Of a stretch of DNA of 64,000 bases, positions 34,855 through 42,438 are shown one piece after another. The notes under the pieces are model-generated. The model saw only the letters and a list, made by a program, of their open reading frames with translations. It ran no database searches and was not told the origin of the DNA. The stretch covers positions 8,370,001 to 8,434,000 of the forward strand of contig NZ_CP108046.1 in NCBI RefSeq assembly GCF_041435115.1, given 5' to 3'. The translations under genes were made by a program, and so were the position numbers. How positions within the stretch are numbered: position 1 is the stretch's first letter; each line of letters starts with the position of its first letter. Source of the DNA: Streptomyces sp. NBC_00289 (GTDB lineage Bacteria > Actinomycetota > Actinomycetes > Streptomycetales > Streptomycetaceae).

Positions 34855-34877
34855 TTGTCAGTGGCCGCCTGTAGGTT
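34855..34877 (+). promoter_or_regulatory. PafBC-type (RecA-independent) damage promoter of ung
   Basis: TTGTCAGTG (34855-34863), exactly 8 nt, TAGGTT (34872-34877). This is the TTGTCRGTG-N8-TAnnnT architecture of PafBC-dependent promoters described in mycobacteria. It sits about 57 nt before the ung start codon. The assignment rests on sequence match. Confidence 0.75.
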
Positions 34878-34933
34878 CTGTGGCCTGGAAGCGATCGCAC
34901 CGCGCAGTCGCCGCACACCGTAAGGAAGTTGAC

Positions 34934-35617
34934 GTGACCGACATCGCCATGCTGCCCGGGTCCTGGCGCGGGATCCTGGGTGACGAACTGCAGCAGCCCT
35001 ACTTCAAGGAGCTGACGGAGTTCGTCGAGGAGGAGCGGGCGAAGGGTCCCGTCCACCCGCCCCGCGAGGAGGTCTTCGCCGCGCTGGACGCCACGCCGTA
35101 CGAGAGCGTGAAGGTCCTGGTCCTCGGCCAGGACCCGTACCACGGCGAGGGCCAGGGACACGGCCTGTGCTTCTCGGTGCGTCCCGGGGTGCGCACACCG
35201 CCCTCCCTGCGCAACATCTACAAGGAGATGAAGGAGGAGCTCGGCCTGCCCGTCCCGGACAACGGCTATCTGATGCCGTGGGCCCGGCAGGGCGTCCTGC
35301 TCCTCAACGCGGTGCTCACCGTCCGCGGCGGCGAGGCCAACTCGCACAAGGGCAGAGGCTGGGAGAAGTTCACCGACGCGGTGATCCGCGCGGTGGCCGA
35401 CCGGCCCGACCCGGCGGTGTTCGTCCTGTGGGGCAACTACGCGCAGAAGAAGCTCCCCCTGATCGACGAGACGCGGCACATCGTGGTCAAGGGCGCGCAT
35501 CCCTCGCCGCTGTCGGCGAAGAAGTTCTTCGGCTCCCGCCCGTTCACGCAGATCAACGAGGCGATCGCCCGGCAGGGCCACGAGCCGATCGACTGGCGCG
35601 TCCCGAACCTCGGCTGA
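34934..35617 (+). CDS. ung: Uracil-DNA glycosylase
   Basis: Family-1 uracil-DNA glycosylase of 227 aa that removes uracil from DNA in base-excision repair. The catalytic water-activating Asp is residue 67 in GQDPYHG, NAVLTV carries the uracil-recognition segment, and HPSPLS (His near 190) is the DNA-intercalation motif. The GTG at 34934 follows AAGGAAG by 6-7 nt. Streptomyces often have two ung copies. The damage-type promoter supports a repair role. Confidence 0.96.
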   Translation: MTDIAMLPGSWRGILGDELQQPYFKELTEFVEEERAKGPVHPPREEVFAALDATPYESVKVLVLGQDPYHGEGQGHGLCFSVRPGVRTPPSLRNIYKEMKEELGLPVPDNGYLMPWARQGVLLLNAVLTVRGGEANSHKGRGWEKFTDAVIRAVADRPDPAVFVLWGNYAQKKLPLIDETRHIVVKGAHPSPLSAKKFFGSRPFTQINEAIARQGHEPIDWRVPNLG

Positions 35618-35668
35618 GTGCCACCTGGCCGGTTCCCGCCGAACCGGACCGGTGCGGCCTGACGGGGA

Positions 35669-35691
35669 TTGTCAGTCGCCGGCGTTAGCGT
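35669..35691 (+). promoter_or_regulatory. PafBC-type promoter of the TPR gene
   Basis: TTGTCAGTC (35669-35677), 8 nt, TAGCGT (35686-35691). Same layout as the ung promoter about 0.8 kb upstream, with one base different in the distal element. It lies 36 nt before the GTG at 35727. Confidence 0.7.
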
Positions 35692-35726
35692 CGGGAGGGA
35701 CAGCCGACGAGCGCGCGGAGGACAGG

Positions 35727-36245
35727 GTGGCGGAGCGACAGGAGCGGGCGGCCCCGGATGCCGTGATGACACGGATCGGGCAGGTCGTGATCCTGCATCA
35801 CGCGGGCGACCGTGAGGAGGCCCGGCACCGCTTCCTCGGCCTGTGGGCGGAGATCGGCGAGGACGGCGACCCACTGCACCGGTGCACGCTGGCGCACTAC
35901 CTGGCCGACACACAGGACGACCCGTTCGACGAACTCGCCTGGGATCTGAGGGCGCTGACCGCCGCCGAGGAGCTCACGGCCGACCGGCTCGCCGAGCACG
36001 GGGCCGCGCTCGCCGTCCGCGCTCTCTACCCCTCGCTGCACCTGAACCTGGCCGCCGACTACGTGAAGCTCGGCCGTGCCGAGGCCGCCCGCACCCATCT
36101 GCGCCGCGCCCGGGGCGCCGCCGACGCCCTGACCGACGACAGCTACGGCGACGGGGTGCGCGCGGCGATCAGCCGCCTGGAGTTGCGGCTCGGGGACGGC
36201 AGCGCCTCGGGCGGCGGCGGGTGGGGGCCCAGACAGCGGCCCTGA
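35727..36245 (+). CDS. Tetratricopeptide-repeat-like protein
   Basis: Protein of 172 aa, mostly helical, with paired-helix repeats of TPR character (ALAVRALYPSLHLNLAADYVKLGRAEAARTHLRRA near residues 95-135). It ends in a Gly-rich tail and has no catalytic motif; TPR scaffolds mediate protein contacts. GTG 35727 lies after GGAGGACAGG. Because it has its own PafBC-type promoter it may take part in the DNA-damage response. Convergent with a lipoprotein gene. Confidence 0.75.
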   Translation: MAERQERAAPDAVMTRIGQVVILHHAGDREEARHRFLGLWAEIGEDGDPLHRCTLAHYLADTQDDPFDELAWDLRALTAAEELTADRLAEHGAALAVRALYPSLHLNLAADYVKLGRAEAARTHLRRARGAADALTDDSYGDGVRAAISRLELRLGDGSASGGGGWGPRQRP

Positions 36246-36246
36246 C

Positions 36247-36266
36247 AGCGCCGCCCGAACGGCGCT
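36247..36266. terminator. Short bidirectional terminator
   Basis: AGCGCCG (36247-36253) and CGGCGCT (36260-36266) form a 7-bp stem in the 27-bp gap between convergent genes. Confidence 0.5.
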
Positions 36267-36272
36267 TCCGTC

Positions 36273-36752
36273 TCAGCGCCCGTAGGCCTGCCCGCAGATG
36301 ACTGCCTCGGGACTGTCCGCCTGCCAGCCGCCGTACTGCTTGCCGAGGGCGCAGACATCGGTGTGCTGCCGGACGTCTCCGCGGACGGACTCGGACACGT
36401 CGGGGATCTCGACCCGGGGCCGTCGCGGATGCCGGGGTGGTGGGAGTGGCGTGCGGGTGTGCGGGTGCTGGGCGGGAGGCGGCTGTTGCCGTGTGGCGGG
36501 TGGCGCCACCCGGCGAGGCACGGGGACGGCCGCCCGTGGACTGCGGGACGGGCCGATGAGCTCCAGGGCCTCCCGGGCCGGCGCCTGCACGATCTGCGGC
36601 TCGGCCCGGCCGTCCGGGCGGGGCGCCGCCGTCGGCTGGGCCGGAGCCGCCGGCGGGCCGGAGAAGGGTGGGCGCTGGACCGTCACACAGCCGGACAGGG
36701 CCGAAACGGCCACGGCGGCCAGGAGCGTTGCGGTGGTCGTCGTTCGATGCAC
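36273..36752 (-). CDS. Small lipoprotein, Pro/Arg-rich
   Basis: Secreted lipoprotein of 159 aa. An N-terminal signal (TTTTATLLAAVAVSA) ends in lipobox LSGC, followed by a long Pro/Arg-rich linker and a C-terminal module with two Cys (VCALGKQYGGWQADSPEAVI, CGQAYGR), which probably form a disulfide outside the cell. GTG start at 36752. The C-terminal Cys module recurs in small Streptomyces secreted proteins. Function unknown; perhaps wall-associated. Confidence 0.72.
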   Translation of the reverse strand: MHRTTTTATLLAAVAVSALSGCVTVQRPPFSGPPAAPAQPTAAPRPDGRAEPQIVQAPAREALELIGPSRSPRAAVPVPRRVAPPATRQQPPPAQHPHTRTPLPPPRHPRRPRVEIPDVSESVRGDVRQHTDVCALGKQYGGWQADSPEAVICGQAYGR

Positions 36753-36894
36753 CCGCGCAACTCTGCTCGGTCGGGCCCGCTCCGGGACAGCGGACCGACC
36801 GAGGTTGCCCCACACGGGTGATCTCCTGCCCCTTACGGAGGGCGCGGAGTGGGCGTGGGTGACGCTGGTCGGTTCGGCGGCCCGGGCCCGAGCG

Positions 36895-36923
36895 CGGTCC
36901 CGGGGTGTTCGGTTCCGGGACCG
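36895..36923 (-). terminator. Terminator after the DinB-like gene
   Basis: CGGTCCCGG (36895-36903) and CCGGGACCG (36915-36923) form a perfect 9-bp stem, 8 nt past the stop of the minus-strand DinB-like gene. The rest of 36753-36931 holds nothing else I can support. Confidence 0.65.
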
Positions 36924-36931
36924 GGCCCGGT

Positions 36932-37444
36932 TCACTCCCCGGTGGCGCCGTCGACGCGCTCGCGGATCAGGTCGGCGTGGCCGTTGTGGCGCGCGTACTC
37001 CTCGATCATGTGGGTGTAGATCCAGCGCAGGCTGAAGGGTTCGTCCGTGGACCGGCTCCTGCCCTTGGAGAGGTCGTCGAGGGCGAAACCGGCCGCGATC
37101 CGCCGGGCGGTGTCGATCTCGGTCTGCCAGGTGGCGCGGGCCTCCTCCCACGTGTCCGCCTCGGTGAGGTGGAACTCGCCGTCCCGGTCCTCCTCGGTGT
37201 AGTAGATCGGCCCCGGGGCGTCGCCCGCCAGGACCTTGCGGAACCAGCCCCGCTCCACCTCGGCCATGTGCCGCACCAACCCCATCAGGGACAGTTCGGA
37301 CGGTTCCACCGAAGCGGTCCTGAGCTGGGCGTCGGTCAGCCCCTCGCACTTCCACGCGAGGGTCTGCCGGTGGTAGTCCAGCCAGCCCTCCAGCATGGTG
37401 CGTTCGTCGGCGTTCTGGGCGGGTTCACTGCGCTGCGTCGTCAT
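36932..37444 (-). CDS. DinB family protein (DUF664)
   Basis: Four-helix-bundle protein of 170 aa of the DinB/DUF664 type. ERTMLEGWLDYHRQTLAWKC opens helix one, LVRHMAEVERGWF carries the first metal His, and IYTHMIEEYARHNGHADLI the last His pair. Members bind a divalent metal; in mycothiol-using bacteria related proteins act as mycothiol-dependent transferases, so this may be a thiol transferase. Start ATG 37444, where the ribosome site is weak. Confidence 0.87.
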   Translation of the reverse strand: MTTQRSEPAQNADERTMLEGWLDYHRQTLAWKCEGLTDAQLRTASVEPSELSLMGLVRHMAEVERGWFRKVLAGDAPGPIYYTEEDRDGEFHLTEADTWEEARATWQTEIDTARRIAAGFALDDLSKGRSRSTDEPFSLRWIYTHMIEEYARHNGHADLIRERVDGATGE

Positions 37445-37562
37445 GCCTGCATGGTGACCCAACCCGGCGGGGCACACCCTGTGCTTTTCTCCCGTGCCCG
37501 GCCCGCGCGGCCCCCCCGTATGCTTCCGGGTGGCTCAGCAGGCAACCGGTAGAGGAGACCCA

Positions 37563-38468
37563 GTGAAGGTCGGCTGCATCGGACTCGGCGACATCGCGCG
37601 GAAGGCCTATCTGCCCGTCCTCGCCGTGCAGCCCGGAGTCGAACTGCATCTGCAGACCCGGACCCCCGCCACGCTGGACCGCGTCGCCGACGAGCTCCAC
37701 CTGCCCGGCCCGCAGCGTCACCCCGACCTGGACGCGCTCCTCGCGCAGGGCCTCGACGCCGCGTTCGTGCACGCCCCCACCACCGCCCACCCGGACATCG
37801 TCACCCGGCTGCTCGACGCCGGCGTACCGACCTACGTCGACAAGCCGCTCGCGTACGAACTGGCCGACTCCGAACGGCTGGTGGCACTCGCCGAGCGGCG
37901 GAACGTGAGCCTCGCCGTCGGCTTCAACCGGCGCTACGCCCCCGCCTACGCGCAGTGCGCCGAGCACCCGCGCGAGCTGATCCTCCTGCAGAAGAACCGC
38001 ATCGGCCTGCCGGAGGAGCCGCGGCCGATGATCCTCGACGACTTCATCCACGTCGTCGACACACTGCGCTTCCTGGCGCCCGGCCCGGTCGACGACGTGA
38101 CCGTGCGCGCCCGCGTCGTGGACGGCCTGCTGCACCACGTGGTGCTGCAGCTCTCCGCCGAAGGCTTCACCGCGCTCGGCGTGATGAACCGGCTCAGCGG
38201 CTCCGCGGAGGAGATCCTCGAGGTGTCCGGGCAGGACACCAAGCGTCAGGTGCTCAACCTCGCCGAGGTGATCGACCACAAGGGACAGCCGACTCTGCGG
38301 CGGCGCGGGGACTGGGTGCCGGTGGCCCGGCAGCGCGGCATCGAACAGGCGGTGCTGGCCTTCCTCGACGCCGTGCGCGCGGGCAAGGTGCTCAGCGCCC
38401 GGGACGCGCTGGCGACTCACGAACTGTGCGAGCGGGTGGTCCTAGCGGTTCAGGAGCGAGCCGCCTGA
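37563..38468 (+). CDS. Gfo/Idh/MocA family oxidoreductase
   Basis: Rossmann oxidoreductase of 301 aa. GCIGLGDIARKAYLPVL binds NAD(P), VDKPLAYEL is the EKP-like catalytic lysine motif, and GFNRRYAPAYA follows. The C-terminal domain contains DFIHVVDTLRFL. GTG 37563 follows GAGGAGA. Sugar or inositol substrates are typical but the exact one is unknown. Its last 77 bp overlap the 3' end of the convergent Lnt gene. Confidence 0.87.
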   Translation: MKVGCIGLGDIARKAYLPVLAVQPGVELHLQTRTPATLDRVADELHLPGPQRHPDLDALLAQGLDAAFVHAPTTAHPDIVTRLLDAGVPTYVDKPLAYELADSERLVALAERRNVSLAVGFNRRYAPAYAQCAEHPRELILLQKNRIGLPEEPRPMILDDFIHVVDTLRFLAPGPVDDVTVRARVVDGLLHHVVLQLSAEGFTALGVMNRLSGSAEEILEVSGQDTKRQVLNLAEVIDHKGQPTLRRRGDWVPVARQRGIEQAVLAFLDAVRAGKVLSARDALATHELCERVVLAVQERAA

Positions 38469-40020
38469 GCCGCAGGGTCCGTGCGCCCTCGGCGGCACAC
38501 CACGCGGCGAGGATCAGCAGCGCCGCGTGCGCCGGCCAGTCACCGTAGCGGACGTACGGGGTGATGCCGTGCGCCAGCGGGACGGCGTACACCTGCTCGG
38601 TGCTCGCGTCGGTGCCGAGCCAGGAACCGAGGCGCTGCCCGCTCGGGCCGTAGACGGCGGACACTCCCGTCAGCGTCGCGTGCACCATCGGCCGGCCCGT
38701 CTCGGCGGCACGCAGCGCGGCCAGCGAGGCATGCTGCTCGGGGGCCCAGGTGTGCTGGAACGTCGAGGTCGAGGACTGGGCGACCAGTACGTCGGCACCG
38801 TCGTCGGCGAGATGGCGGCTCATGTCGGGGAACGCGGTCTCGAAGCACACCATCGGGCCGACGCGCAGCCCGTGCCCCACGTTCATGACCACCTGCTCCG
38901 TGCCACGCCTGCGGTCCTCGCCGGCCGCCTTGCCGACGGAGGTCGCCCAGCCGAGCAGGGAGCGGGCCGGAACGTACTCGCCGAAGGGGACCAGCCGCAT
39001 CTTGTCGTAGCGGTCGCCGGTGAGGCCTCGCGGGCCGACGAGGACCGAACCCTTGTAGATGCCGGGCTTGTCGGACCGCCGTGCGTCCACGTTGACCAGG
39101 ACGTCGGCCCCGGTCGCGCGCGAGAGCGCGGCGATCCGCCGGGCGAGATCCGGGCGCTCGACGAGGTCGAAGCCGACGCTGCTCTCGCCCCAGACGATCA
39201 GGTCGACGTCCTGACCGACCAGCCGGCGGGTGAGCTGCTCCTCACGGTCGAACCGGCGGTCGCCGCTCACGGTGCCGTCGACGACGCCCGGCTGCACCAC
39301 GGCTATCCGGACCTCGCCGTCGACATCCGGACGCGGCGACCACACCCAGGCCGCGGAGGTGGCGGCGGCGGTGGCGACCAGACCGGCCACGGCGGGCATC
39401 CGGGACTCGCGGACCGACACGAGTACGGCGACCGCGACGTTGACCGCCACCACCAGGAAGCTCAGCAGCCACACCCCGCCGACCGACGCGAGCCGCAGTG
39501 CCGGTTCCAGTTGCCACTGGCTGGAGCCGAGCATCCCCCACGGACCGCCCAGGCCCTGCCAGGAACGGACCAGTTCGACCGTCAGCCAGCCCGAGGGCAG
39601 CACGAGGAGGGCGCCCACCACCTGGCCGCGGCCAGGTGTCGCGGCCAGGAACCGGCGCACGAGCATGCCCCACGGGGCCCACAGCGCGCCGAGCAGCGCG
39701 GCGATGACGAACGTGAAGACATGCAGGCTGGGCAGCAGCCAGTGGTGCATCGCCAGCATGAACCCGAAGCCGCCGCCCCAGCCGTCGTACGCCGCCCGTT
39801 TCCCGGTCGGCGCGGAGCGGGCCAGCGCGATCCACGGCACCAGGGCGATGTAGGCGAACCACCACAGGGACGGGGCGGGGAAGGCGAGCACGGGCAGGGC
39901 GCCCGCCAGGGCGGCGACGGCCGAACGCCGCCACGGCGAGGCGAGCCACCCGTCCACGACGGATACGGCGGTCGTCGAACGCCGCCGGGCGAAGGCAGGC
40001 CGGTGGCCGAAGGTCTCCAT
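38392..40020 (-). CDS. lnt: Apolipoprotein N-acyltransferase
   Basis: Membrane enzyme of 542 aa that transfers a third acyl chain to the N-terminal Cys of lipoproteins. About six to seven helices precede a periplasmic nitrilase-like domain with the catalytic triad: Glu in VWGESSV, Lys in DKMRLVPFGEYVP, Cys in VCFETAFP. A last helix (HAALLILAAWCAAEGA) ends it. ATG 40020 with GGGGAG 6 nt upstream. The 3' end overlaps the convergent Gfo/Idh/MocA gene by 77 bp. Streptomyces often carry two Lnt copies. Confidence 0.93.
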   Translation of the reverse strand: METFGHRPAFARRRSTTAVSVVDGWLASPWRRSAVAALAGALPVLAFPAPSLWWFAYIALVPWIALARSAPTGKRAAYDGWGGGFGFMLAMHHWLLPSLHVFTFVIAALLGALWAPWGMLVRRFLAATPGRGQVVGALLVLPSGWLTVELVRSWQGLGGPWGMLGSSQWQLEPALRLASVGGVWLLSFLVVAVNVAVAVLVSVRESRMPAVAGLVATAAATSAAWVWSPRPDVDGEVRIAVVQPGVVDGTVSGDRRFDREEQLTRRLVGQDVDLIVWGESSVGFDLVERPDLARRIAALSRATGADVLVNVDARRSDKPGIYKGSVLVGPRGLTGDRYDKMRLVPFGEYVPARSLLGWATSVGKAAGEDRRRGTEQVVMNVGHGLRVGPMVCFETAFPDMSRHLADDGADVLVAQSSTSTFQHTWAPEQHASLAALRAAETGRPMVHATLTGVSAVYGPSGQRLGSWLGTDASTEQVYAVPLAHGITPYVRYGDWPAHAALLILAAWCAAEGARTLRLRRLAPEPLGPPARTVRESPARPGR

Positions 40021-40091
40021 AGGGCGCTCCCCTACCCAGCGGACGGCTCCAGTGTGCCTGCCGGCGGCGATCTCGGACAGAGGACGCCGGT

Positions 40092-40595
40092 TCAGTTGAC
40101 CACAGGCGCCGGCTGCCGCTCGGGCAGACGGCGCCACTTCTCCTGGACGACCACGGCGCGCAGCCGCCAGCCGTCGTCCGTCCGCAGCAGCCCGAACGCG
40201 TAGCGGCCGCCGCACACGAAGTCCGGTGCGGCCGCTCCGGCCTCGTCCCCGGCGAACCGCATCGGATTGACATAGTCGGCCCGGACCTCGGCCGTGTCGC
40301 CCGCGTCCTGGTCGAGGAGGCCGAACCGGATCCGCCGGTTGACGATCAGATGCTGCCGCATCGGGAACAGCCGCATGCTCTCCGCGAGCCATCCGACGAC
40401 CGTCCCGGCGTCCCCCTCGACACCTCCCGCCGACCGGTAGTCCGCCCGCCCACCCGGCGCGAACAGCCCCCGGTACGCCTCCCAGTCGCCGTCGTCCACC
40501 GCCGCCGCGTAGTCGGTGATCAGTTCGTCGACGGCCAGTCGGTCCATCACGGTCGCGAGCTCCACACGCTGCGTCATCGGCTCAGTGTTGGGCAT
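40092..40595 (-). CDS. SnoaL-like (NTF2 fold) protein
   Basis: Protein of 167 aa with the NTF2/SnoaL-like cone fold, opening with VMDRLAVDELITDYAAAVDD, then DWEAYRGLFAPGG and the late GGRYAFGLLRTDDGWRLRAV strand pair. The family includes dehydratases, cyclases and isomerases, and often partners SDR enzymes; a SDR gene is divergent here. ATG 40595 has GCGGAG about 9 nt upstream; MTQRV at 40577 is possible. Confidence 0.85.
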   Translation of the reverse strand: MPNTEPMTQRVELATVMDRLAVDELITDYAAAVDDGDWEAYRGLFAPGGRADYRSAGGVEGDAGTVVGWLAESMRLFPMRQHLIVNRRIRFGLLDQDAGDTAEVRADYVNPMRFAGDEAGAAAPDFVCGGRYAFGLLRTDDGWRLRAVVVQEKWRRLPERQPAPVVN

Positions 40596-40756
40596 GTTCA
40601 GAGCTCCGCCAAGGGGCACGCGGCGACATTCGGTGGCCTCGGGGCGCATCCCGGCCGGATCGACCGGTCGAGGGGAGGGAATCCGCAGGTCGGTACTTGG
40701 TGCGTCACCGGGGCCTCCCGTGACCGCGTGGGGTCGGCTACGGTCATGGGCGATCG

Positions 40757-40768
40757 ATGATCGATCAT
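40757..40768. promoter_or_regulatory. Palindrome in the divergent promoter
   Basis: ATGATCGATCAT is a perfect 12-bp palindrome within GATCGATGATCGATC, 22 bp before the SDR start and 161 bp before the SnoaL-like start. Candidate TetR-type operator; also TACGGT at 40739-40744 could be a -10. Confidence 0.45.
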
Positions 40769-40790
40769 TCCACTGAGTTTTGGAGGACTC

Positions 40791-41534
40791 ATGACACGTC
40801 GTCCCGTCACGGTCGTCACCGGGGGCAGTCGGGGGATCGGCGCCGCGACCTGTCGGCGGCTCGCCGTGGACGGCCACGACGTCGTGGTGGGATACGTCCG
40901 GGACGCCGGAGCGGCGGAGGCGGTGGCCGACGAGGTGCGGGAGGCCGGCGGCCGTTGCGTCACCGTGGCCGGGGACACGGCGGTCGAGGCGGACGTCGAG
41001 CGGCTCTTCGACACGGCGGAGCGGCGGCTCGGGCCGGTGACCGGCCTGGTGAACAACGCCGGGGTGACCGGGCCGCTCGGCCGGCTGGTCGACGCCGACT
41101 CAGCGGACCTGCGCCGGGTCCTGGACGTCAACCTCCTGGGCACCCTGCTGTGTTCACGCCGGGCGGCGCAGCTCATGACCGCGCGGGGCTCCGGCGTGAT
41201 CGTGAACGTGTCGTCGGCCGCCGCCACCCTCGGCAGTCCCGGGGAGTACGTCCACTACGCCGCGACCAAGGCGGCCGTGGACGCCCTGACCCTGGGTCTG
41301 GCCAGGGAACTCGGCCCGGAGGGTGTGCGGGTCAACGCGGTCGCGCCCGGGGTCGTCGACACCGAGATGCACGCCGCGATGGGCGCCCCGGACCGGGCCG
41401 CGCGTGCCGCCCCGTCGATTCCGCTGCGGCGCCCGGGCAGGGCGGAGGAGATCGCCGCCGCGATCGCGTGGCTGCTGTCGCCGGACGCGTCGTACGCGAC
41501 GGGCGCGGTGCTGCGGGTGTCGGGCGGACGGTGA
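40791..41534 (+). CDS. SDR family oxidoreductase
   Basis: Classical SDR of 247 aa. TGGSRGIGAATC, NNAGVTGPLG, NVSSAAA and YAATKAAV (catalytic Tyr/Lys) are seen, with the C-terminal TGAVLRVSGG. TGGAGGACTC precedes the ATG. The divergent SnoaL-like gene suggests both modify one small ring compound. The gene ends only 3 bp from the convergent CPT-like gene. Confidence 0.9.
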   Translation: MTRRPVTVVTGGSRGIGAATCRRLAVDGHDVVVGYVRDAGAAEAVADEVREAGGRCVTVAGDTAVEADVERLFDTAERRLGPVTGLVNNAGVTGPLGRLVDADSADLRRVLDVNLLGTLLCSRRAAQLMTARGSGVIVNVSSAAATLGSPGEYVHYAATKAAVDALTLGLARELGPEGVRVNAVAPGVVDTEMHAAMGAPDRAARAAPSIPLRRPGRAEEIAAAIAWLLSPDASYATGAVLRVSGGR

Positions 41535-41537
41535 GGC

Positions 41538-42107
41538 TCAGCGGGTGGCGCGCAGCCGCTCGAAGGCGGTCGGCGTGGGTCTCGCCGTCAGGAAGTCCCT
41601 GATACGGCCGGCGCAGTCCCGGGGAGTGGAGCGGCTGGTGTCGCACTCGACGTCGTAGACGCCGTGGCTGTGCACCTGTCGCAGCTGGCGCACGGCGAGG
41701 CCGGACGGCCGGTCGGCGCGCTCTCGCTCGCGGCGCTCCAGCTCCTCCAACGGGCAGTGCACGCCGACCAGTACGACGTCCTGCGGCACGAAGAGCGAGA
41801 GGCAGTCCGTGAGTCGCCACTCGGCGCTCAACACATGGTCCATGACGACGTTGTTGCCCGCGGCGGCCATGCCGGCGACCGCCCGGTGGAAGCCCTGCCA
41901 GGTGCGGTGCAGTACGGCGTCGAGCCGGTCCGGCGGGATCTCGGTGCGGGAGCGCATCGCGTGGAACGCGTCGACGGGCATGTGGAAGTACGGTTCGTCG
42001 AGCATCCGCAGCAGCTCGCCCGCGATGCTCGACTTGCCCGAACTGGACGTGCCGTTGAGGAAGACGACCAGGCCGCGACGCGGCGGAACGCTGTCCAGGT
42101 GCTGCAC
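41538..42107 (-). CDS. CPT-like (chloramphenicol phosphotransferase family) kinase
   Basis: P-loop kinase of 189 aa related to chloramphenicol 3-O-phosphotransferase. Walker A is GTSSSGKSS; the Asp in PVDAFHAMRSR and the lid-region LEELERRERERADRP fit the family. The GTG at 42107 has AGGA 5 nt upstream. The true substrate need not be chloramphenicol; many actinobacterial CPT homologues are of unknown specificity. It lies 50 nt after a small gene under a PafBC-type promoter, so it may be damage-induced. Confidence 0.83.
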   Translation of the reverse strand: MQHLDSVPPRRGLVVFLNGTSSSGKSSIAGELLRMLDEPYFHMPVDAFHAMRSRTEIPPDRLDAVLHRTWQGFHRAVAGMAAAGNNVVMDHVLSAEWRLTDCLSLFVPQDVVLVGVHCPLEELERRERERADRPSGLAVRQLRQVHSHGVYDVECDTSRSTPRDCAGRIRDFLTARPTPTAFERLRATR

Positions 42108-42157
42108 GGGGATCCTGCCGAAAGTGTCCGGTCGCTGTGGATACGCGGTGGCCGGTT

Positions 42158-42337
42158 TCAGGCCGCCTCGACGACCTCGCCCCGGATCGCCGCCGCCCAC
42201 TCGACCACCAACCGCTCGTACGCCGCCCGCTCCTGGGCCGTCAGGGAACCGCCGGCGCGCAGCCAGAGCGCACGGATCTGCTCGTTGACCTGGGCGGCGG
42301 ACCGTACGGAACCAGAGGTGTGGGAATCGGGGAACAT
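42158..42337 (-). CDS. Small conserved helical protein
   Basis: Protein of 59 aa starting MFPDSHTSGSVRSAAQVNEQ and predicted to be two helices (AAQVNEQIRALWLRAG, TAQERAAYERLVVEWAAAIR). No known family. It is leaderless: TACGCT ends 7 nt before the ATG. First gene of the operon with the CPT-like kinase, so it could be a regulator or partner of that kinase. Confidence 0.68.
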   Translation of the reverse strand: MFPDSHTSGSVRSAAQVNEQIRALWLRAGGSLTAQERAAYERLVVEWAAAIRGEVVEAA

Positions 42338-42344
42338 GCGGACA

Positions 42345-42367
42345 AGCGTAGGCGCAAGCACTGACAG
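42345..42367 (-). promoter_or_regulatory. PafBC-type promoter of the small-ORF/CPT operon
   Basis: On the minus strand CTGTCAGTG (42367-42359), 8 nt, TACGCT (42350-42345), then 7 nt to the ATG. One base differs from the ung element. Third example in the window. Confidence 0.68.
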
Positions 42368-42438
42368 TCCGCTACCGGACGGCTACGCATCACCTATGGG
42401 CTTGGTCACGGGAAAATCTCGGGGCCGCCGCCCACGGC

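Follow-up and report, generated by a model that had tools for sequence, protein, structure and literature searches.

Which regulator stands behind three putative promoter elements, one of them ahead of the uracil-DNA glycosylase gene ung, in a 64,000-nucleotide stretch of Streptomyces sp. NBC_00289 (contig NZ_CP108046.1, positions 8,370,001 to 8,434,000; hereafter the window)? Each element combines a TGTC-containing half, a spacer of 8 nucleotides (nt) and a TANNNT box, a layout that the initial annotation had recognized as that of the PafBC-dependent, RecA-independent DNA damage (RecA-NDp) promoters of mycobacteria. Such mycobacterial promoters are reportedly treated in studies by Gamulin (2004) and Mueller (2018, 2021), and a RecA-NDp promoter in Streptomyces is said to have been described by Ahel (2002). 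From the sequence, and by analogy with mycobacteria, we consider it very likely that all three sites serve as PafBC-class promoters, working by the mycobacterial mechanism, in a genome that carries pafA, pafB, pafC, tatC and helY in one locus. The candidate promoters are:

34855..34877, plus strand: putative PafBC-type (RecA-NDp) promoter of ung, TTGTCAGTG-GCCGCCTG-TAGGTT, N8 spacer
35669..35691, plus strand: putative PafBC-type promoter of a TPR gene, TTGTCAGTC-GCCGGCGT-TAGCGT, N8 spacer
42345..42367, minus strand: putative PafBC-type promoter of a 59-amino-acid (59-aa) open reading frame (ORF), CTGTCAGTG-CTTGCGCC-TACGCT, N8 spacer

Direct reading and a pattern search of the window both place the sites exactly where the initial annotation had put them, with a spacing of 8 in all three. 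The core pattern used throughout, TGTCRGTS-N8-TANNNT, matches the window at these sites alone; the mean for dinucleotide shuffles was 0.02, and a count of three was reached by none of 100 shuffles. For whole genomes the reversed pattern served as the background. The source genome (11.0 Mb) yielded 52 matches to the core pattern and 3 to its reverse. When the gap was allowed to vary from 3 to 15 nt, 72 matches were obtained, 52 of them at a gap of 8 and the other 20 spread over the remaining 12 spacings; for the looser pattern in reverse, 44 matches were counted across all 13 spacings, so the excess is confined to a gap of 8. A chance origin of the motif is rejected on the strength of the shuffles, the reversed-pattern control and this excess.

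The enrichment extends well beyond the source strain. Within a phylum sample of 296 genomes, one per species and with multi-genome totals summed from per-genome tables, all 12 genomes of the same genus were enriched (25–80 matches each, 622 in total against 16 for the control), and the other 23 genomes of the class gave 399 matches against 28. The genomes behind the named loci used below (12 asked for, 11 searchable) were enriched in 11 of 11 cases, with 623 matches against 10, among them S. griseus (47 against 0), S. violaceoruber NRRL S-981 (64 against 1) and Kitasatospora aureofaciens (52 against 1). Over 23 genomes, which include one Kitasatospora, the count per genome is 25–85 sites, against 0–5 for the control.

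By automatic gene call, 8 of the 52 sites in the source genome fall within coding sequence. On re-reading the starts at these eight, six (loci L009, L010, L025, L042, L048 and L049) were found to have a fitting start codon 7–10 nt after the motif; at L048 a weak gene call on the opposite strand was set aside during the re-reading, and the L009 site additionally overlaps the final 19 bases of the preceding gene. Three of the 52 sites then overlap another gene, L011 and L047 wholly and L009 over those 19 bases. Re-reading of this kind works in favour of the promoter reading, and the automatic count is kept alongside. The exact site at L011, at the end of a threonine-dehydratase-like gene (named by eye), is best read as a coding coincidence and not as a promoter. 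The genome-wide search that the initial annotation had called for thus returns sites that lie mostly before gene starts. It had also allowed that the motif might occur equally often inside coding regions and lack conservation before orthologues; for the class as a whole we find neither, with 8 of 52 sites (automatic) or 3 of 52 (re-read) in genes and the ung motif exact in 77 of 80 named loci.

Distances between TANNNT and the start codon fall into separate ranges: 6–10 nt at 23 of the 52 sites (15 from the automatic call and 8 with hand-corrected starts), 11–21 nt at none, 22–100 nt at 23 and longer at six. Since the start codons cluster 6–7 nt after TANNNT, where transcription would begin, many of the messages should be leaderless. 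Leaderless messages make up about 20% in S. lividans (PMC6742748; here and below, statements taken from cited papers refer to the accessible part of their text).

The genes for the presumed regulator are present. A single locus holds pafA, encoding the Pup ligase, followed by pafB and pafC and then by tatC and helY, so that pafB and pafC lie between the ligase gene and tatC-helY; PafB has WYL and WCX domains, PafC a PafC-type helix-turn-helix (HTH_PafC) followed by WYL and WCX, and the start codon of helY is found 10 nt after a motif. Within the phylum sample (at most 14 PafC candidates scored per genome), a PafC hit was obtained in all 35 genomes of the class, which together give 1021 motif matches against 44 for the control, and the 20 listed genomes of the 60 without a PafC hit give 44 against 43. 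A variant of the motif with a 9-nt spacer was also noted in the source genome (G000:C1:2549018-2549040, plus strand), beside L034; the gene divergent from it has a weak match to a PafC-type HTH and is possibly another WYL-type regulator.

The proteins encoded downstream were scanned with Pfam for 48 of the 49 sites outside the window (L011 being left out) and for the window genes; names ending in "-like", as well as HelY, rest on domain content, and Pfam names are not functions. Genes or operons of replication, recombination or repair follow 20 of the 52 sites. They include ung, recA, uvrA, uvrB, ruvC, dnaE, dnaG, dnaX and ogt, rpsF followed by ssb, two UvrD helicases, an HhH-GPD glycosylase, a RecD2-type protein, a PD-(D/E)XK nuclease, a RadA-like and a RarA-like ATPase, an RNase_T exonuclease, HelY and a DinG-like helicase. 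For the remaining 32, the targets include housekeeping genes, genes for transport and for hydrolases, and unknown genes. Two separate YjbR-family genes lie behind the motif (L002 and L003), as do genes for a mycothiol-isomerase-like SCP_3 protein, TerD, a SUKH-4 protein and a PADLOC SWIM_XIII match (L026, L044, L030 and L053). Another target, at L012, is a sigma factor gene of the extracytoplasmic function (ECF) type, with Sigma70_r2/r4_2 domains and an NTF2/SnoaL-like tail; it may be related to a sigma factor that has been suggested as a regulator in S. lividans.

Hexamers and spacing identical to those of the M. tuberculosis motif, the presence of pafBC, the repair targets, the fixed spacing and the position of the sites before gene starts together support a PafBC-type reading. 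By analogy with mycobacteria, single-stranded DNA (ssDNA) produced by damage would activate PafBC, which would act as an activator by sitting between the housekeeping sigma factor and the TGTCRGTG element at about −26; RNA polymerase could then start from the TANNNT box without a −35 element. Under such a scheme ung and the 59-aa gene would respond to damage. In a minority of species, a CPT-like kinase gene could come under the same control through its position behind the 59-aa gene. The genes concerned, and one further conserved element, are:

34934..35617, plus strand: ung, uracil-DNA glycosylase, GTG start, Pfam UDG at 5e-16
35727..36245, plus strand: gene for a TPR-like all-helical protein of 172 aa, best Pfam match TPR_4 at 1.4e-5, just under the family cut-off
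41538..42107, minus strand: gene for a CPT-like P-loop kinase, separated by 50 nt from the 59-aa ORF upstream, Pfam CPT at 9e-52
42158..42337, minus strand: 59-aa ORF, predicted small two-helix protein, excess of differences at third codon positions, no Pfam or NCBIfam family
42370..42386, minus strand: conserved block GTAGC-N4-CGGTAGCG, immediately ahead of the 59-aa promoter, each named letter in at least 90% of 61 orthologues

The promoter of ung is a firm member of the PafBC-type set, as judged from its conservation. The gene is matched in 100 of 101 genus genomes, with an identity to named Streptomyces loci of up to 94%, and its motif is exact in 30 of 30 genus loci; the three named loci out of 80 that deviate do so by one mismatch. 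Its message would have a 5′ untranslated region of about 50 nt.

The 59-aa ORF is well supported, on comparative grounds, as a conserved candidate member. Its start codon lies 7 nt after the TACGCT −10 box, so the message is probably leaderless. Matches were found in 77 of 101 genus genomes, some of them to paralogues only, and the motif is exact in 20 of the 30 best genus loci. Of the 37 named loci with a hit, 17 have the exact motif and seven a single mismatch, and among the others a few match poorly and are probably paralogues. Across 61 ungapped orthologues, TANNNT stands 6–7 nt before the start in every case, and the letters GTCAG are kept in at least 90%. Pairwise comparison of the 59 distinct sequences among these orthologues gave 18191, 12510 and 29790 differences at codon positions 1, 2 and 3, and from this excess at the third position we conclude that the ORF is a translated gene. 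The predicted structure is a two-helix hairpin (predicted local distance difference test score 80), and the protein had no match in Pfam, NCBIfam, PDB sequences or phage records. A paralogue lies at G000:C1:1812396-1812533 on the minus strand (L239), beside an ORF for a ROK-like regulator (named by eye), and many genus genomes have second matches.

The kinase gene fares differently. Cotranscription with the 59-aa ORF is possible from the arrangement, yet the kinase occurs in only 21 of 101 genus genomes (search at 1e-20) and adjoins the 59-aa gene in line in six of these, namely the source genome, G011, G017, G049, G063 and G097, the last two as partial matches; in G014 the two genes are convergent. 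It was found in 4 of 80 named loci (tblastn at 1e-5), where some loci end at contig ends and not every absence is real. Among the loci that were fetched, the two genes are close together and in line, the kinase gene second, in our own locus, L227, L228 and L229, and are convergent in L230. Seven distant CPT loci have no exact motif within 300 nt before the extrapolated start. Given this rarity and these motif-free distant copies, a link of the kinase to damage is weak, and the gene is rejected as a conserved member of the set. Like chloramphenicol phosphotransferase (CPT; PDB 1grq and 1qhx), the kinase matches Pfam CPT, and it matches 1grq at 5e-14; unlike it, it scores 75 bits against the CPT equivalog of NCBIfam, NF033114, whose cut-off is 250, and a resistance function is therefore not indicated.

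Several observations weigh against the PafBC reading. Genomes of other classes with a PafC-type HTH can show no motif excess (G109, G149 and G171 have no matches), so PafC alone does not predict the exact motif, and its presence as a sufficient predictor across the phylum is unsupported. An initial search published for S. venezuelae, a species outside the present sample, suggested that the M. smegmatis motif is not conserved there (PMC9380542). Ten of the 30 genus loci of the 59-aa gene deviate from the exact motif by one to three letters, while keeping TANNNT in place as well as GTCAG, the changes falling elsewhere in TGTCAGTS. The exact motif precedes only 9 of 30 TPR orthologues in the genus and 10 of 78 in the named loci.

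This last figure touches one of the three window sites directly. The TPR gene is matched in 91 of 101 genus genomes, and its 172-aa product is modelled with eight helices (predicted template modelling score 0.78). By eye, 29 of 30 relatives have TAGCGT upstream, whereas the TGTC half varies and reads TGCCGGTG or worse in many of them. That pattern is what an ordinary housekeeping promoter with a conserved TAGCGT would leave, with TGTCAGTC incidental or recently gained in this strain, an explanation that we hold to be quite possible for this gene, though not the one we lean towards. Exact sites nevertheless recur at the right place in several relatives, far above chance: the named loci (1.5 Mb) contain 108 exact hits, 10 of them before the TPR gene, the reversed control giving none, and a further 16 of the 78 orthologues have a site with one mismatch. 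PafBC control of the TPR gene, if real, would therefore have been gained or lost within the genus, and at best it is lineage-specific, confined to this strain and some relatives. Of the three new damage-regulon candidates in the initial annotation, only the 59-aa ORF is thus retained as a conserved one. Downstream of ung and ahead of the TPR promoter, a CCGGTTC/GAACCGG hairpin (found by eye; 35629-35647, plus strand) could keep the two transcripts apart.

For the set as a whole, the most developed alternative comes from the mapping of transcription start sites in S. lividans, where promoters with TGTC, 12 nt and TANNNT were found to be enriched for genes of clusters of orthologous groups category L and ascribed to a sigma factor (PMC6742748). 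The ECF-type sigma factor SLIV_13900/SCO4895 would, in the proposal of those authors, read this class and regulate repair genes, its own gene having such a promoter. The same source reports no peak for the 12-nt spacer in the HrdB regulon of S. coelicolor and two sigma genes that use the class; it also cites a study in which one of the two is co-expressed with repair genes on exposure to ciprofloxacin. The ECF-type sigma gene at L012 lies behind the motif as well; a regulator's target, however, can look like a regulator. ECF sigma factors recognize a −35 element of the GGAAC type, and no further upstream element is conserved at the 52 sites, where, of the 50 positions upstream of the TGTC half-site, only the two columns next to it exceed 0.25 bits. 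Moreover, TANNNT is the −10 box of the general promoter set in S. lividans (PMC6742748), and the layout equals that of PafBC promoters, at which the housekeeping sigma factor is used (PMC11804915). We regard control by the ECF sigma factor as very improbable.

Constitutive promoters of core replication and repair genes, with no damage response, are by our estimate quite improbable too: housekeeping genes are indeed among the targets (rpsF, dnaE, dnaG, murB and folB), and the S. lividans start sites were presumably mapped without deliberate damage, but the same motif, derived from expression data as TGTCGG/TGTCAG/TGTCAC-N10-TA-N3-T, is activated by damage in M. tuberculosis (PMC8151990), and SCO6735 of S. 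coelicolor, behind a RecA-NDp promoter, is UV-inducible (PMC5087735). That LexA and the SOS response explain the cluster is extremely improbable. LexA does control recA, ruvC and other genes in S. venezuelae (PMC9380542); SOS-box-like sites with at most 3 mismatches are nevertheless at chance level in the window (31 against 26.5 expected), no such site occurs between any of the three motifs and the start that follows it, and SOS control is rejected for these promoters. PafBC thus remains our preferred regulator for the three sites.

The same promoter type also precedes an anti-plasmid defence system. One of the 52 sites (L038, G000:C1:7164878) lies 7 nt before the start codon of jetA in a jetABCD operon (L238:1879-10349), which matches all four PADLOC type-2 Wadjet models, jetA-jetB-jetC-jetD. 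The recurrence of this arrangement was surveyed in the best-scoring jetA loci of the genus and class searches. Nine of 30 jetA-family loci of the genus (our own included) have the exact motif, always before the jetA match and on its strand, with no exact motif elsewhere in 130.7 kb and none for the control. Seven of the 30 loci are close relatives of our own operon (at least 68% identity, our own included): in five the motif is exact and a start codon follows after 7 nt, L266 has one mismatch and L272 is without the motif. The other four exact loci are divergent, at 26–31% identity. Among 28 further jetA loci from the class search, four have the motif (one of them in the same genus), all upstream, again with none for the control.

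These results lead us to a broader proposal, advanced tentatively and with chances that we would place just short of even: the Actinomycetia, including Streptomyces, would possess a large PafBC-type regulon that is biased towards leaderless messages, counts the 59-aa protein as a new and conserved member and has taken in anti-plasmid SMC operons of the Wadjet type on repeated occasions, and the TGTC-12-TANNNT class of S. lividans would be re-assigned from a sigma factor to PafBC. If this is true, repair and plasmid defence would increase jointly in response to DNA damage or to ssDNA from an incoming element. Our literature search, which had little reach into subscription journals, retrieved no published PafBC regulon of Streptomyces and no title reporting damage or promoter control of Wadjet, or such control in Streptomyces; the accessible text of PMC10482375 mentions neither DNA damage nor promoters. 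A damage response independent of RecA and LexA in Streptomyces is stated to be an open question (PMC9380542). The motif sets make such a response directly testable and supply a target list, they offer a regulator for the S. lividans promoter class left to an unproven sigma factor, and they add the conserved 59-aa protein and the Wadjet operons as candidates.

The promoter class itself is known, as RecA-NDp; what is new is the family of the 59-aa protein, the connection drawn between three bodies of literature and the presence of Wadjet behind the same promoter. The sites described here share with the mycobacterial PafBC/RecA-NDp promoters the TGTCRG-N10-TA-N3-T layout, the lack of a −35 element, the position before repair genes and the location of pafBC in the Pup locus (PMC8151990, PMC8223512, PMC11804915). 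They differ at the fifth motif position, which is A at 45 of the 52 sites and G in the M. smegmatis form (cited in PMC8151990), and in having many leaderless-looking targets, the 59-aa family and Wadjet, all known here from sequence alone. The initial annotation is supported, at the level of sequence, in assigning a PafBC architecture, by hexamers, spacing, pafBC and repair targets; its description of the layout as mycobacterial was too narrow, the RecA-NDp type being in print for Streptomyces (PMC5087735). Those earlier promoters, of Streptomyces recA and SCO6735 (PMC5087735 and PMC9411070, citing work of 2002 and 2004), are of the same type and from the same genus, and one of them is UV-inducible; they were described as single genes, whereas a genome-wide set with tests of spacing and orthologues is given here. 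The S. lividans class, finally, has an identical geometry, TGTC with 12 nt before TANNNT, and the same enrichment for replication and repair, but it was assigned there to a sigma factor with no link to PafBC, neither PafBC nor RecA-NDp being mentioned in the accessible text of PMC6742748.

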